Of a stretch of DNA of 64,000 nucleotides, positions 31,611 through 62,376 are shown in pieces. The stretch lies in the NCBI RefSeq assembly GCF_020097815.1, contig NZ_CP083664.1, positions 62,001 through 126,000 on the forward strand, in the 5' to 3' direction. Every line of letters starts with the position of its first letter. The first letter of the stretch is position 1. The notes under the pieces were generated by a model that saw nothing but the letters and a program-made list of their open reading frames with translations, was not told where the DNA came from and ran no database searches. Source of the DNA: Haloprofundus salinisoli. GTDB lineage: Archaea; Halobacteriota; Halobacteria; Halobacteriales; Haloferacaceae. Both the position numbers and the translations under genes were made by a program.

Positions 31611-31650
31611 GTATCGGAACTATCGGAACTCACCCTGTTCCGTTTATTAC
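31611..31650 (+). promoter_or_regulatory. Promoter and repeated CGGAA motif before the Orc-like gene
   Basis: GTATCGGAACTATCGGAACT (31,611-31,630) is two tandem ATCGGAACT units. It is followed by CACCCTGTTCCG, so the second unit also forms a CGGAAC/GTTCCG inverted repeat. A TATA-like TTTATTAC lies at 31,643-31,650, 28-35 bases before the ATG, as for a leaderless transcript. A very similar arrangement stands before the next gene at 32,698, which suggests one regulator for both. Confidence 0.6.
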
Positions 31651-31677
31651 GGCTCCCGAGGAAGAGTCCGGATAAGT

Positions 31678-32691
31678 ATGATCAACGATGCTCGCGTGCT
31701 GCAACCCGAGTTCATCCCTCAGGAGATCGAGCATCGCAATCAAGAGACGAACGTCCTCTCGAACGCGCTCAAACCAATCATGGACGGCCAACCGGGGGAA
31801 ACTTCACTCCTGCTTGGTCCATCTGGTGCCGGAAAAACGTGCATCGCGCAGTTCACCGTCGAACGGCTCCGAGAGAACGTCCTCGACATCAACACCCAAT
31901 ACATCAACTGTTGGCAGGACTACACCCGATTTCGAGTCCTCTACCGTATCCTCGAAGGGATAGACCAGACGGTAGATATCCACCGGCGTTCCACACCACG
32001 GGACGAATTGCTAACTCGACTTCAGGAGTACGACGGTCCGCACTACGTCGTCATTCTCGACGAAGTCGACCAACTCGAAGACAAAAGCGTCCTCTACGAC
32101 CTCTATCGCACGCGTAAGATTACGATGATACTCATCGCCAACCGCGAAGAGGACCTGTTCTCGATGTTCGACGAACGCTTGACGAGCCGCCTGCACGGGA
32201 GTGTCCGGGTTGAATTTGAGAGGTACCACCTTGACGAACTTGTCGTGATTCTGGCTGCGCGAGCACGCTGGGGACTATCGGAAAGCGCTATCGGAAATCA
32301 GCAACTCGCTCTCATCGCCGACGCGGCAGCCGGTGATGCGAGAATTGGGATTAGCATTCTCCGCAACGCTGCGCGCCTCGCAGATCAGCAATCTCTCGAC
32401 ACAATCTCGAACGAAATCGTCCATGAGGCCGTCCCCGACGGACGCGAGGAGATTCGGCGCTCGACCGCAGACAAATTACGTGAGCATCAGCGCGTCCTCT
32501 ACGAGATTTTGCTCGATTCTGGCGAGATGAGTCCGGGCGATCTCTACGACGAATACTGCGAGCACGTCGACGAACCGAAGACGAAGCGAACCGTCCGCAA
32601 CTACCTCCAGAAGATGGAGCAGTACCGACTCGTCGTCGCCCAAGGCGAGAAGCGTGCGCGGACCTACAGACCTCGGAAAGAAGCGTCCTGA
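31678..32691 (+). CDS. Orc1/Cdc6-family AAA+ ATPase
   Basis: A 337-residue Orc1/Cdc6-type protein, shorter than typical haloarchaeal initiators. It starts with the family pattern (MINDARVLQPEFIPQEIEHR). Walker A is GPSGAGKT (47-54), Walker B VVILDEVD (124-131) and sensor 1 ILIAN (about 151-155), with DERLTSRL after it. The C-terminal winged-helix region (about 255-337) would bind DNA. It heads an operon with a RecA-like protein, a small protein and a PolB2-type polymerase. A role in the DNA damage response or as a regulator, as proposed for Orc1-2 in Sulfolobales, is as likely as origin firing. No classical origin repeat set is seen next to it. Confidence 0.88.
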   Translation: MINDARVLQPEFIPQEIEHRNQETNVLSNALKPIMDGQPGETSLLLGPSGAGKTCIAQFTVERLRENVLDINTQYINCWQDYTRFRVLYRILEGIDQTVDIHRRSTPRDELLTRLQEYDGPHYVVILDEVDQLEDKSVLYDLYRTRKITMILIANREEDLFSMFDERLTSRLHGSVRVEFERYHLDELVVILAARARWGLSESAIGNQQLALIADAAAGDARIGISILRNAARLADQQSLDTISNEIVHEAVPDGREEIRRSTADKLREHQRVLYEILLDSGEMSPGDLYDEYCEHVDEPKTKRTVRNYLQKMEQYRLVVAQGEKRARTYRPRKEAS

Positions 32692-32697
32692 AACGCG

Positions 32698-32731
32698 GTA
32701 TCGGAATTTCGGAAACACCCCTGTCTTCATT
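32698..32731 (+). promoter_or_regulatory. Second CGGAA-motif promoter before the RecA-like gene
   Basis: GTATCGGAATTTCGGAAACA starts at 32,698 and continues CCCCTGT. It matches the element at 31,611 except for a few substitutions and one missing base. CTTCATTATG (32,723-32,732) is the TATA-like box, 30-39 bases before ATG 32,762. The distance from the motif to the ATG is 64 bases here and 67 before the Orc-like gene. This supports 32,762 as the true start. Confidence 0.55.
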
Positions 32732-32761
32732 ATGACACAAAGCCGCATAGGTTCTCCTGTA

Positions 32762-33442
32762 ATGTACCAACAGACCGGCGACCAACCAATACTCCCGACG
32801 CTACAGGAGGGGATGACACTCTTACAGGCGAATCGAAGAGCGACAGGTGCGTTGCAGTCACTCGTCCTTGACCATCTCCTCTTAGAGGACGGAGACGCAG
32901 TCTGGGTCGACGCTCGTGGAAACGGAACGACGCAGCAACTGTGTCGAATCGCACCGAATATGAGAGTACTCGACCGAGTTCACATCGCTCGAGGCTTCAC
33001 TCCGTGGCAGCACTACAGCCTGCTGACGGACCTTCCCGATCACATCACAGAGGACACGTCGCTCGTCGTGCTTCCGGAGTTCGACTGGTTCTACCGGACT
33101 GATGACCTCCGGCGCGGCGAAGGCGAGCGAATGTTCTCGGAGGCAGTTTCGCGAGTCATGGAGTTGCTTAACGATGTCGACGTACCGGTTCTCCTCACGC
33201 TGTCGGAAAGAGACGACTTCACCGAACCACTCCACGACGTGATTTCCGAAACGGTGGAGTGTGAGCTGACCAAGTATGGACCACGGTTCTCGGGCGACTC
33301 GTTCGATACGCTCGTTTATCCGCTCGACAACGGGCTAGTCCAGACGACGATTGCGTACTGGAACACTATCCTCGCGGCACGTCACCCAGCTGTCGTTCCG
33401 ACGACTACGTCTTCGGAGGTGACCACCGTTGGGGCGAACTAA
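32762..33442 (+). CDS. RecA/RadA-fold-like protein without a clear Walker A
   Basis: The 226-residue protein is unnamed, but its strand order looks like a degraded RecA-type ATPase core: LVLDHLLLEDGDAVWVDARGNGTTQQL at the usual P-loop position with no GxxxxGKT, TSLVVLPEFDWFY in the Walker B position, and VPVLLTLSERDDF. I chose ATG 32,762 (MYQQTGDQPILPT) from its spacing to the conserved upstream motif. The next upstream ATG at 32,732 lies inside the TATA-like box. It overlaps the following gene by 14 bases. Position and fold suggest a polymerase accessory, like ImuA-type proteins in bacterial mutagenesis cassettes; this is inference. Confidence 0.65.
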   Translation: MYQQTGDQPILPTLQEGMTLLQANRRATGALQSLVLDHLLLEDGDAVWVDARGNGTTQQLCRIAPNMRVLDRVHIARGFTPWQHYSLLTDLPDHITEDTSLVVLPEFDWFYRTDDLRRGEGERMFSEAVSRVMELLNDVDVPVLLTLSERDDFTEPLHDVISETVECELTKYGPRFSGDSFDTLVYPLDNGLVQTTIAYWNTILAARHPAVVPTTTSSEVTTVGAN

Positions 33443-33689
33443 CCCGACGCACCGTGATTTGATTCGTGCGACCGAGAGCCGATGGTCGGACTATCGGCGT
33501 GCGCTCAGACACGACGATCAGCCGCATTACGACCGGTTGTTCGACCACGCTCGTGCTCACGCGGACGCCGGTGGGTATCTCAACCACCAGTTCGTCGAGA
33601 TTCCGATTCTCATCTCCATCGCGCTCGAGCAGGAGAAGCGGATTACGTCGCTTGAGAATCGAATGGACGTCGACGAATTTGGCGAGTGA
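33429..33689 (+). CDS. Small cassette protein with TTG start
   Basis: An 86-residue acidic and Arg/His-rich protein of unknown function, helical in appearance (TESRWSDYRRALRHDDQPHYDRLFDHA, IALEQEKRITSLENRMD). The start is TTG at 33,429, decided by a strong Shine-Dalgarno sequence GGAGGTGA at 33,415-33,422, six bases upstream. There is no other start before the C-terminus. It overlaps the RecA-like gene and ends three bases before the polymerase ATG, so it is embedded in the operon. A polymerase- or RecA-binding adaptor is possible but unproven. Confidence 0.75.
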   Translation: MGRTNPTHRDLIRATESRWSDYRRALRHDDQPHYDRLFDHARAHADAGGYLNHQFVEIPILISIALEQEKRITSLENRMDVDEFGE

Positions 33690-33692
33690 CCC

Positions 33693-35804
33693 ATGCCGTT
33701 CAAAATCGACTATCTCGATGGTGACGTACTCGAGTGGTCACTGACGCCCGGCGGTGCGGAGTTCACTCGAAACGCGTCATACGAGCCAACGATATACATC
33801 TCGGCACACGGCGATGGCGATCTCAAGGAGGTCTCGGAGGTACTCCGTCGACACCCGAAGGTCACACTCGCGCACCTGGTGGAGGAGAGAGTCGGGTTCA
33901 GACACGACCCAGAACCGGTACTTCGTGTCGATGTTGTCGACTTGGATGCAGTTACTGATGTTGCACACCAAGTCAGGGGATGGGGAAAACCCGGTGAGTA
34001 CCGGTGCTACAACGTCGATTTGAGCCGAGAGTTCAGATACTGTCTCGAGGAGGGCGTGTCGCCGATACCCGATGGCGATCTCTCAGTTCTCGATGTTTCT
34101 ATCCCAGAGCCTCAACTCTCGAGTGGACAGATCACGACGGTCGAGCTAGGAGACGAGACGGTGAGCGGAACGCAGGTGGATATCATCGAGGCGGTGAGCA
34201 ACCATCTCAGCGCTGACGACCCGGATGTCCTCCTGCTCAACACGAGTGAGGTAATCCCGAAATTGTACCAACAAGCCGAGCGGGTGGGGAATCATGAGTT
34301 TGAGTTAGGGCGTCTCTCCGGTTGGCAACAACTCGCGGGAAAGTCGACGTACGCGAGTTACGGGAAAGTTGGCCACTCGCCAGCGCGGTACAACCTCCCG
34401 GGTCGGATAATCATCGACCGGTCGAATACGTTCATGTGGAACCAGACGAACCTCGACGGCTGTCTCGACCTCGTCGAACGGTCGGGGAAACCGCTTCAGG
34501 AGTTAGCCTGGTCTTCTATTGGGAACATCCTTACAGCGATTCAGATTCGAGAGGCGCGGAAACGAGGTGTGTTGGTTCCGTGGAACTCCTGGCGGCACGA
34601 GCAGTTCAAGACGATGCGCCAGCTGCACGAGGCAGATCGCGGCGGATTTACATTCGCACCGAAGGTGGGTTTCCACGAGGACGTCTACGAACTCGACTTC
34701 TCGTCGTTGTACCCGAACATCATCGTCACTCGCAACGTGAGTCCCGAGAAGATTCGCTGTGAGTGTCACGCTGGTCGAGAGGACGTACCGGGACTGGGTT
34801 ACTGTATCTGCGACGAGCGAGGGTACCTCCCGGACGTCCTTGAACCGCTCATCGAAGACCGCGACGCTATCAAAGCCGAGCTTCAAGAGATAGACGACCC
34901 AGAGCGAGAGAAAGCGTTAGAGGGTCGATCGAACGCGATCAAGTGGATTCTCGTCTCTTGCTTCGGGTATCAGGGATTTTCGAACGCGAAGTTCGGGCGT
35001 ATCGAGGGCCACGAGGCGATCAACGCGTTCGCTCGAGAGATTCTCCTCGACTCGAAGCAGATATTCGAGCAGAACGGATGGGAAATCGTCCACGGGATCG
35101 TCGACAGTATCTGGGTCCGGCGGGTTGAGAACGAGGCGCAGACCCCGCTCGACGAACTCGCCGAGCAAATCACTCGCGAGGTAGGGATACGATTGGAATA
35201 CGAGGCAGCATACGATTGGATTGCATTCGTCCCGATGCGCGATAGCGACGCTGGCGCGTTGACGAAATATTTCGGAAAGATCGCCGACGAGGACGAGTAC
35301 AAGTATCGGGGTATTGAGTGCCGACAGCGTAGTACGCCGGCGTTCATCGAAGAAGCGCAGAAGGATTTGGTTCGAGTCCTTGACGAGCATCGAGAACCAG
35401 AACGCGTCTGCGACCGACTGAAACTGTGGGTTGAGCGCCTTCGGCGTGGCAGTGTTGAGCTGGAAAATCTTCTGATTGACAATCGAGTCTCAAAGAACGC
35501 CGGCGAGTATTCGCAGTACACACGGAACGCGGCAGCACTCGAACGGGCCGAAGGACACGGCCTCAGTCGAAGTCCAGGTGAGAGCGTTTCCTACGTCGTC
35601 GTCGACGACGAGAAACGGTCGAGAGACCGGGTGGCGTTGGCACATGAGGAACCCTTGGAGTACGATGCCGACTTCTACGAGACGCTACTCCTCCGTGCGG
35701 CGGAGAGCGTCCTCTCGCCGCTCGGCTGGCGTCAGTCCGCTATCGAGAACGCGCTCGCAGGCTCGCAGGATTCGAAGCTCTCGGCGTTCGAGAGCTGGGG
35801 ATAG
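33693..35804 (+). CDS. polB2: Family B DNA polymerase, PolB2-like with altered catalytic motif
   Basis: The 703-residue polymerase is shorter than replicative PolB. Motif A is DFSSLYPNII (335-344) with the metal-binding Asp335. Motif B is KWILVSCFGY (417-426). Motif C reads HGIVDS (467-472) where active enzymes have YGDTDS, so the first Asp is replaced by Ile and only Asp471 remains. The N-terminal exonuclease domain is degenerate: at about 132-138 the DIE motif is VLDVSIP, and exo II and III acidic residues are not evident. This matches the archaeal PolB2 group first described as inactivated; a Sulfolobus member was later reported active in lesion bypass. It lies last in the cassette. Confidence 0.85.
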   Translation: MPFKIDYLDGDVLEWSLTPGGAEFTRNASYEPTIYISAHGDGDLKEVSEVLRRHPKVTLAHLVEERVGFRHDPEPVLRVDVVDLDAVTDVAHQVRGWGKPGEYRCYNVDLSREFRYCLEEGVSPIPDGDLSVLDVSIPEPQLSSGQITTVELGDETVSGTQVDIIEAVSNHLSADDPDVLLLNTSEVIPKLYQQAERVGNHEFELGRLSGWQQLAGKSTYASYGKVGHSPARYNLPGRIIIDRSNTFMWNQTNLDGCLDLVERSGKPLQELAWSSIGNILTAIQIREARKRGVLVPWNSWRHEQFKTMRQLHEADRGGFTFAPKVGFHEDVYELDFSSLYPNIIVTRNVSPEKIRCECHAGREDVPGLGYCICDERGYLPDVLEPLIEDRDAIKAELQEIDDPEREKALEGRSNAIKWILVSCFGYQGFSNAKFGRIEGHEAINAFAREILLDSKQIFEQNGWEIVHGIVDSIWVRRVENEAQTPLDELAEQITREVGIRLEYEAAYDWIAFVPMRDSDAGALTKYFGKIADEDEYKYRGIECRQRSTPAFIEEAQKDLVRVLDEHREPERVCDRLKLWVERLRRGSVELENLLIDNRVSKNAGEYSQYTRNAAALERAEGHGLSRSPGESVSYVVVDDEKRSRDRVALAHEEPLEYDADFYETLLLRAAESVLSPLGWRQSAIENALAGSQDSKLSAFESWG

Positions 35805-35999
35805 ATGGATCGACTGATCACTGACGCCCGGGCGTTTCGATCGGGGTACGTCCCGCAAGAACTCTACCATCGAGAGGGGCAGATTGCTCAGCTCTCCTCG
35901 GCGCTCGGCATTCGCTGGGGTCACGTCAACTGCATGAGCGACTCCTCGAAGTCCGCGGTATTGCACGCTCTGACTAAGCACGCCGGTCGTGCTGCTTAC
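35805..35999 (+). pseudogene. Truncated Orc1/Cdc6-like gene lacking Walker A
   Basis: The ATG directly follows the polymerase stop. The first 33 residues (LITDARAFRSGYVPQELYHRE) match the start of the Orc-like protein at 31,678. The frame then jumps from SSALGIRWG straight to HVNCMSDSSKSAVLHAL, corresponding to YINCWQDYTRFRVLYRI, so about 45 residues with the P-loop are missing. The readable similarity stops near 35,999, where the convergent hydrolase gene ends; the open frame runs on to 36,137 as antisense. This is an internally deleted, 3'-truncated remnant of a duplicated Orc gene. Confidence 0.72.
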
Positions 36000-37385
36000 C
36001 TATGCCCGGTGGAGTCGCCAACGGTCGACGAACATTTCCATGCTATCGGTCGTCTGTTCGAACCTGACTGGTGTACGACTCCCATCAGGAGTGACAGTGT
36101 AGAATTCAAAATCTGTCGGATCGGTACTTTCGGGTAGCACGAGCAGTTTCTGTGTCGCGCGACCACTCCCGTACTCCACAGTCAACCCACCGGAGACACG
36201 GTCGACGGTTGCGGTTGTAATACCTCGGTACGACTCGTAATCGCCCGTCACCGCATCCAACTTGGTGTCGAGGCCGAACTGAGGGACAGCGTTTGTGGGG
36301 TCCTCACCCTGCACGATTGCCAGTATCGCCGGGCCGACGTTCATTGGGTGTACTTTCGGAGAGGTCGAGCACTGTAACACGACACCGACAGCTGCCTCTT
36401 CGAGGAATCCGAGATACGCAGTACATACTCCAATGGACCCACCATGTCCGATTAGCCGGTCGCCAACGAGGTCTGAAATCATCCAACCGCATCCGTAACG
36501 CTGTGTCTCCCCATTCAGATACTGCAATCTCGTTGAGGCTGGCTCGTGCAGTTCGGCGAGATTCTCCGACGAGAGTAGGTGGTTTCCCTCGAACTCCCCA
36601 CCGTTCATATTCATCCGAAGATAGTTCGACATTTCAGTGACCGAGCTGAGAAGTCCCCCAGGAGCATAGATTGTTTCGTCAAATGGGAACGACCCTGTCT
36701 CCAAACCTCCCTCTCCGTGGAAATAGGGTGTCATTCGGTCTTCTTGCTTCTCGAACGAGTCGGAGTCGAAAGTCGACCGAGTCATTCCGAGCGGCTCGAG
36801 AATCTGCTCCTGAACGTACTTCTCGTAGGACTTCCCGGTAATGCTCTCTACGACTTCGCCGAGGACGGTGTAGCCGGAATTGTAGTAGAAGAAGTGCTCA
36901 TCTTCGTCGGTGAGACGTTCTTCGAGTGCTCCCCACAGGTGTCTCGAAAAATCGCTGTCGCTTGTAATGGGCGAGGCGACTTCACCAGCCCCCATGAGAC
37001 GTGCGATGAGTACAGCAGCGCTTCCATCGCTTGGCAGTCCGGAGGTGTGAGTCAGCAATTGATGGATCGAAATTGGGTCTCCCGGTGCATCGGTGTAGCG
37101 GTCAACGTACTCACTAATGGGGTCTGTGAGCTCAAGTTCTCCATCCTCGGCGAGTTGCTGAATAGCCAAGGCGGTGAACGACTTCGTGATTGACCCGATC
37201 CCATAGAGTGTGTCGCTCGTCGACGGAAGATTCTCGGAGACATCACGGGCACCGAAGCCATCAGCATAAACGAGTTCGTCTCCCTTTACCAGAGCCAAGC
37301 TCGCACCAGGAATTCCATTGTCGTCCATCCAGTCGATGACGAACGATTCGACTGCCGCGCAGGTCGTACGGTCGATTGTTGGCAT
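36000..37385 (-). CDS. Serine beta-lactamase-like hydrolase / D-peptidase family
   Basis: A 461-residue class C beta-lactamase-fold protein. The active-site SxxK is GSITKSF (Ser65, Lys68), followed by the YxN motif FYYNSGY near residue 166 and the HGG motif IGHGGSIG in the second half. A C-terminal lipocalin-like extension (about 370-461) is present. No signal peptide is seen, so it is probably cytoplasmic. Family members include esterases, D-aminopeptidases and peptidoglycan-peptide hydrolases. Beside a dipeptidase, a D-amino-acid deacylase and a dipeptide epimerase, a D-peptidase role is attractive. Confidence 0.87.
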   Translation of the reverse strand: MPTIDRTTCAAVESFVIDWMDDNGIPGASLALVKGDELVYADGFGARDVSENLPSTSDTLYGIGSITKSFTALAIQQLAEDGELELTDPISEYVDRYTDAPGDPISIHQLLTHTSGLPSDGSAAVLIARLMGAGEVASPITSDSDFSRHLWGALEERLTDEDEHFFYYNSGYTVLGEVVESITGKSYEKYVQEQILEPLGMTRSTFDSDSFEKQEDRMTPYFHGEGGLETGSFPFDETIYAPGGLLSSVTEMSNYLRMNMNGGEFEGNHLLSSENLAELHEPASTRLQYLNGETQRYGCGWMISDLVGDRLIGHGGSIGVCTAYLGFLEEAAVGVVLQCSTSPKVHPMNVGPAILAIVQGEDPTNAVPQFGLDTKLDAVTGDYESYRGITTATVDRVSGGLTVEYGSGRATQKLLVLPESTDPTDFEFYTVTPDGSRTPVRFEQTTDSMEMFVDRWRLHRA

Positions 37386-61898: not shown

Positions 61899-62309
61899 CT
61901 ACTTCGTCGACGGTGTAAATCCGTCTTCTCGTGCAGCGTCGAGCACGTTGTGGGCCCACGTCGCCGGAAGTCGCTTCTGATGCTTCTCGACGAGATCGAC
62001 CCACGTCTGGGCGTCTTTACGCGCGAGCGTCTCGTGATATCCGGGTTCGACAGGCTCGTAGTCGGCGACCTCCTCTCCCGGGAGGTGTGTCGTTTCTGTT
62101 ATCTCGAAGCCGTATTGAGCTTCCGCGAGTTCGAGGTAGCCCTGAGCAGTTCCTGGGTTCGTGTCCATTGCTCGGGCCATCCCGGACACTGAGTATCCGC
62201 GCTCGGAGTAGGCGACCGCCTTCGCCTCAACCATCCGGAGCTCCGTTTTCCGCGAGAGGTACCGTGCGCGTTGGGTCGCATACCGGTCGTCGTCTTCGTA
62301 CTCAGGCAT
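61899..62309 (-). CDS. Helix-turn-helix protein
   Basis: The start is set at 62,309 (MPEYEDDDRYATQRARYLSRK); the longer frame covers non-coding DNA with repeats. The 136-residue protein has a helix-turn-helix around residues 28-60 (ELRMVEAKAVAYSERGYSVSGMARAMD, with GTAQGYLELAE as recognition helix). The C-terminal region YHETLARKDAQTWVDLVEKHQ is also helical. Similar small HTH proteins occur on haloarchaeal plasmids and integrated elements. The gene is flanked by a perfect palindrome downstream and diverged direct repeats upstream. Confidence 0.72.
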   Translation of the reverse strand: MPEYEDDDRYATQRARYLSRKTELRMVEAKAVAYSERGYSVSGMARAMDTNPGTAQGYLELAEAQYGFEITETTHLPGEEVADYEPVEPGYHETLARKDAQTWVDLVEKHQKRLPATWAHNVLDAAREDGFTPSTK

Positions 62310-62376
62310 AGTGACCAGCCGGTCGACAGTAAGTAAAAATGTTCGTGGACTGGGGTGAAAGTGAAACCCGGCGTAG

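Follow-up and report, generated by a model that had tools for sequence, protein, structure and literature searches.

The locus and its two elements

The locus studied here raises the question of why two genes of one operon stand behind almost the same tandem CGGAA repeat, and which protein reads it. The operon lies in a 64,000-nucleotide stretch of DNA from a haloarchaeon, analysed as a whole and referred to below as the window. It runs on one strand from 31678 and comprises four genes followed by a 110-aa Orc fragment:

31678 to 32691, + strand: orc (P0001), Orc1/Cdc6-like AAA+ winged-helix protein by profiles and predicted fold, the proposed regulator
32762 to 33442, + strand: iRadA (P0002), Rad51-like, with a degenerate Walker A
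33429 to 33689, + strand: PPB2-type small protein (P0003)
33693 to 35804, + strand: PolB2-type DNA polymerase (P0004)

P0001 carries the AAA+ Walker A and B motifs, the Cdc6 lid and the C-terminal winged helix of the Orc1/Cdc6 family. It matches Pfam AAA_22 and Cdc6_lid as well as TIGR02928 (E=2e-51; 174.7 bits, slightly below the curated cutoff of 181.3 bits), and its predicted fold is of the Orc1 type (mean pLDDT 83), with best matches that include the DNA-bound Orc1/Cdc6 structures 2qby_A and 2v1u. Genes 2–4 are the known PolB2 mutasome operon (iRadA, PPB2, PolB2) described in 2025 (PMC11791011), with the three genes side by side on one strand. Read by eye, P0002 has DARGNGTTQQ, i.e., a Walker A that is not intact, and P0004 has IVDS, in which the first Asp of DxD is substituted. 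The window operon thus shares with the published mutasome its genes and their order, the degenerate RadA fold, the substituted DxD and an orc1/cdc6 neighbour; homologues of orc1/cdc6 are enriched in archaeal PolB2 operon neighbourhoods, and expression of these operons is damage-induced where tested (PMC11791011). The Orc N-terminal fragment directly 3' of PolB2 (35805-36137, + strand) is probably a decayed copy, and no such fragment was found 3' of PolB2 in genomes G001, G002, G004 and G044.

A first-pass annotation of the window had drawn attention to elements at 31611 and 32698, and both are indeed present and nearly identical. Element 1 (GTATCGGAACTATCGGAACTCACCCTG) starts 67 bp upstream of the ATG at 31678, and element 2 (GTATCGGAATTTCGGAAACACCCCTG) 64 bp upstream of the ATG at 32762. 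This spacing of 64–67 bp, and the TATA-like box said to lie in between, were borne out at both sites (TTTATT at 31643-31648; TTAT at 32730-32733). The placing of element 2 at the end of the first gene needs correction, as it starts 7 bp past the orc stop (32691). In detail, the two promoters contain:

31612 to 31628, + strand: putative operator 1, TATCGGAA-CTA-TCGGAA, tandem, before orc
31632 to 31635, + strand: conserved ACCC block of operator 1
31638 to 31642, - strand: third, inverted copy (TTCCG on the + strand) abutting the TATA box of orc
31643 to 31648, + strand: TATA-like box TTTATT, orc promoter
32699 to 32714, + strand: putative operator 2, TATCGGAA-TT-TCGGAA, before iRadA
32717 to 32721, + strand: conserved ACCCC block of operator 2
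32730 to 32733, + strand: TATA-like TTAT, proposed internal promoter

In both promoters TATCGGAA-N2/3-TCGGAA is accompanied by an ACCC block, and the geometry is alike: a TATA-like box follows the proximal CGGAA after 19–20 bp and precedes the ATG by ~31–32 bp. Given this last distance, the orc and iRadA transcripts are expected to be nearly leaderless, which would leave the elements upstream of the transcript. The inverted TTCCG, which the annotation had missed, occurs at site 1 and not at site 2.

The pattern TCGGAAN{2,6}TCGGAA was found twice in the window against 0.12 expected per shuffled window, and one of 100 shuffles reaches two. Across the 3.42-Mb genome, ATCGGAAN{2,4}TCGGAA has three matches and its reversed-letter control none. 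The third match (C2:214198) was rejected as an operator, being a run of TCGGAA repeats without ACCC or TATA. The looser CGGAA-N-CGGAA pair occurs 58 times in the genome, mostly inside coding DNA, and ten further sites of this kind were rejected. All ten overlap open reading frames, with neither the ACCC block nor a TATA-like box in their surroundings, so that by sequence the regulon in the host's own genome looks tiny.

Conservation of the element at orc promoters

Conservation upstream of orthologues had been named in the first-pass annotation as a check on its claim, and the motif proved to be kept at both genes across Halobacteria. The consensus is [CT]GGAA-N3/4-[CT]GGAA-N3-ACNC, immediately 5' of a TATA-like box. 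Counting tandem or single forms, 87 of the 97 distinct promoters of orthologous orc genes have the element at the expected place, vs. 57 of 13,093 (0.4%) control windows drawn from the same loci. In the Haloprofundus relatives (Orc 96–97% identical) the element and the TATA are kept and the sequence beyond about -70 looks unrelated. A single TTTCCGGAAANNACCC is found in an Orc group, in many cases plasmid-borne, whose members share ~54% identity with P0001; the proximal half of the element stands before the orc1 of Halobacterium salinarum pNRC200. Of the 58 orc promoters with a tandem, 37 have the inverted TTCC[GA] third copy against the TATA, vs. 0 of 36 iRadA promoters, which gives the promoter of the Orc gene itself an additional feature. 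We found no description of the CGGAA element in the haloarchaeal literature, which does not prove that there is none.

Two further observations concern relatives of orc. The same genome encodes an Orc paralogue 66% identical to P0001 whose own promoter is without the element; in two genomes CCGGAATTTCCGGAAACNCCTCTGAAC lies 5' of the next gene region after this paralogue (L094 1353, - strand; L096 1822, + strand), where the next gene, ~250 bp beyond, encodes a 189-aa protein. At G003:C17:54750 (L274/L288) the orc behind an intact CGGAA promoter is degraded, which shows that the operator can persist after the gene has decayed.

A proposed internal promoter and two promoter classes

The annotation had also predicted that element 2 marks a promoter inside the operon, controlled in the same way as the first. 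This is well supported, in that the element stays at iRadA, just 5' of a TATA-like box, when orc is distant. A tandem element lies ahead of iRadA in 36 promoters; it is retained with orc ~1–2 kb away (L152, L127, L134), and in genome G021 it is kept at a cassette on contig C4 with orc on contig C9. Most Orc-linked iRadA genes are preceded by the element, and six of their promoters are missing a clear tandem.

PolB2 cassettes fall into two promoter classes according to their linkage to orc, which for short fragments was judged by genome coordinates. Among Orc-linked cassettes, 24 have the CGGAA element and none has TTTCACTTTCA, whereas nine Orc-unlinked cassettes have CGGAA and 18 have a TTTCACTTTCA-like motif (linked vs. 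unlinked, p=2e-7), i.e., one with up to two mismatches, for which the background is 1.6% per 210-bp window. TTTCACTTTCA has been published as the motif of radA1 and top6B, two Halobacterium genes induced by UV-B (PMC2556686). In the host genome it lies ahead of radA, top6B and the canonical Orc1 gene; it was not found in the window operon, and six sites lie elsewhere in the genome. Given the different motifs at the cassettes, and TTTCACTTTCA before radA, top6B and Orc1, the Orc/CGGAA module looks to be a system of its own, distinct from the UV regulon of the host within the same genome.

A TTTCACTTTCA copy within the window (62356-62366, - strand) lies 57 bp upstream of a 136-aa open reading frame without a Pfam match (61899-62309, - strand), which is a possible member of the host UV regulon. 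The TTTCACTTTCA in the promoter of the canonical Orc1 gene (L223; G000:C1:1236855-1237841, - strand), with exact or near copies in several genera, would put an initiator into that regulon.

Occurrence across the order and other targets

In 243 genomes of the order, TATCGGAAN{3,4}TCGGAA has ~75 matches, vs. none for the reversed-letter pattern. The sites read include 19 before Orc-like genes, seven before iRadA, one before PPB2 and one before the degraded orc of G003, which makes Orc the largest recognisable target group. Seven sites, of family f7, are followed by the leader C[CA]GACGGACA[GC], which is conserved and in several instances leads to a tyrosine-recombinase integrase gene, two of these genes being confirmed by Pfam and PHROGs; damage-linked excision is possible at these sites. 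The f7 leader loci with a CGGAA element are L290, L291, L298, L299, L301, L303 and L306. Three more sites lie ahead of an uncharacterised family of 182–192-aa proteins (L302, L305, L307), one scanned member of which has no Pfam match, and the majority of the remaining sites overlap open reading frames. Where an Orc locus lacks PolB2, the element is also seen ahead of genes for RNase H-fold/DnaQ-like exonucleases and DDE transposases. At L323 4092, the gene after an orc-like gene encodes a PD-(D/E)XK nuclease, and its promoter has a single CGGAAATGGCAC half element. A close Orc homologue occurs in 45 of the 51 genomes with the strict element vs. 126 of the 192 without it (p=0.0017).

A residue that covaries with the putative operator

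The recognition helix of the Orc-like protein is predicted to span residues 303–315. The residue of interest is the first of that helix and adjoins an Arg common to initiator Orcs:

32584 to 32586, + strand: codon of K303, with which the predicted recognition helix begins; this residue covaries with an operator base

The analysis was prompted by a pattern seen in five loci and ranked all 337 positions over 91 promoter–protein pairs. Position 303 came first of 337 for association with T instead of C before GGAA: D303 accompanies 14 of 18 T-containing elements vs. two of 73 others (Fisher 3e-11, a raw value inflated by shared ancestry; next-best position 2e-6). The exceptions are two Halorubrum Orcs with K303 and TGGAA, and two D303 Orcs with CGGAA only. 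On the tree, D at 303 changes ~5 times, and independent pairs give three concordant, none discordant and one tie (p=0.25), the independent origins being too few to give such a corrected test power. Lys facing the G of a C:G pair and Asp facing the A of a T:A pair would be chemically plausible, and we regard the covariation as supportive, not proof, of an Orc-like protein that reads the operator.

Judged from these sequence comparisons, the protein that lands on the repeats is most likely the Orc-like one, which the annotation had already named as a possible binder. Such putative binding is supported indirectly by the element in promoters of the Orc family, by the covariation of base and helix, and by the other element found at Orc-unlinked cassettes.

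Proposed mechanism and alternatives

We propose, with a probability of roughly 0.7, that the first gene of the operon encodes the protein for which the repeats serve as operator, and that this Orc-like protein is a self-regulating Orc-type transcription factor. The C-terminal winged helix would bind the repeats, with residue 303 of the recognition helix reading the base before GGAA, and the operator-bound AAA+ protein would control recruitment of TBP/TFB. It may act at two places. One is the promoter of its own gene, whose inverted copy, in contact with the TATA, could add feedback; the other is the internal promoter, which would drive the PolB2 mutasome separately. By analogy with Sulfolobus Orc1-2 (PMC9738581), the trigger could be DNA damage and the net effect induction. 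The cassette would then bring a private damage regulator, and most cassettes without one may use the host UV motif TTTCACTTTCA. The position of the tandem, which is upstream of the TATA and does not overlap it, slightly favours an activator over a repressor; at the orc promoter, the inverted copy would be in keeping with repression.

The competitor that survives best, to which we give perhaps one chance in four, has the Orc-like protein bind the repeats with no connection to DNA damage, either as a constitutive regulator of its own gene or as a factor that controls the copy number of plasmid-type elements. Plasmids and viruses carry many homologues, the element also stands ahead of transposase and integrase genes, and an inverted copy set against the orc TATA box suits autorepression. 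The putative target here, however, is a translesion-polymerase cassette of a kind whose PolB2 operons are damage-induced where tested, and equivalent Orc-less cassettes have the published UV motif at the same place.

Somewhat less probable is that the repeats are a true operator bound by another chromosomally encoded regulator, with the Orc-like protein merely a co-regulated product. Were orc a mere target, the same co-occurrence would result; many genomes with an Orc homologue are without the strict element, and six of the 51 element-bearing genomes are without a close Orc homologue, one of them (G235) with an integrase-type site. Yet the sites in five of these six overlap open reading frames and look chance-like, most Orc-unlinked PolB2 cassettes have a different motif, and the operator base covaries with a residue of the Orc recognition helix that ranks ahead of all others.

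It is improbable that the repeats are origin recognition boxes (ORBs) of a replication origin beside orc and no operator at all, a reading for which the half-site [CT]GGAAA, which we take to resemble the ORB core, can be counted. Origins with ORBs do adjoin many haloarchaeal orc genes (PMC3528665). The tandem CGGAA, however, is without a G-string and without an inverted pair around an AT-rich region, as an ORB origin would have; its distance to the TATA is fixed; and copies stand before iRadA, exonuclease, transposase and integrase genes. The repeats around the canonical orc1 were coding repeats only, and no ORB was found there for comparison. Chance or composition, for which the 58 mostly coding pairs in the genome might be cited, is refuted by the counts above (87/97 vs. 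0.4%; ~75 vs. 0).

Relation to known systems and implications

The self-regulating Orc-type factor favoured here has its closest parallel in Orc1-2 of Saccharolobus/Sulfolobus, likewise a non-initiator AAA+ winged-helix protein of the Orc1 family with an element in its own promoter, which it binds (PMC9738581). A conserved element at the regulator's own promoter is found here as well, and PolB2 (Dpo2) of Saccharolobus/Sulfolobus is damage-responsive. The Orc1-2 motif is the DDRE ANTTTC, whereas the haloarchaeal element is a [CT]GGAA tandem with ACNC; because ANTTTC occurs in neither window element on either strand, we do not file the module as a Sulfolobus Orc1-2 system. The Orc1-2 regulon is moreover global, in contrast to ~three promoters in this genome, near the regulator or its paralogue. 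The main text of the mutasome study makes no mention of promoters (PMC11791011); to its account the present analysis adds the putative operator, the predicted internal promoter and the division of cassettes into two promoter classes. The UV-B motif TTTCACTTTCA (PMC2556686) is also a tandem short repeat just 5' of the TATA of damage genes, but differs in sequence and is absent from the window operon.

As with bacterial LexA and its SOS box, a regulator gene lies beside a damage-polymerase cassette and under its own operator. The protein is unrelated to LexA (here an Orc AAA+ and winged helix), and the promoter is archaeal. We know of no self-cleavage of the Orc-like regulator, unlike LexA.

The Orc-like protein is thus a candidate local switch of an archaeal SOS-like repair operon. 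A broader and more tentative reading, which we hold to be possible and rather unlikely as a whole, is that a family of Orc paralogues, each with its own operator, forms portable SOS-like switches alongside the separate host UV regulon (TTTCACTTTCA). On plasmids as well as on chromosomes, they would control exonuclease, transposase and provirus-type integrase genes besides translesion polymerase cassettes, and their specificity would diversify via residue 303.

These results bear on how damage genes are switched in archaea outside the Sulfolobales, for which they put forward a candidate regulator together with its putative operator, a predicted internal promoter and a residue that may set specificity; the orc1 of Halobacterium salinarum pNRC200, with the proximal half of the element, provides a counterpart in a model species. 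The promoter classes would show a repair cassette either joining the host UV regulon or carrying its own control. If the proposal is true, proteins related to replication initiators act locally to switch the transcription of mutagenic polymerase genes and mobile elements, and a functional counterpart of LexA has been made from an unrelated protein.
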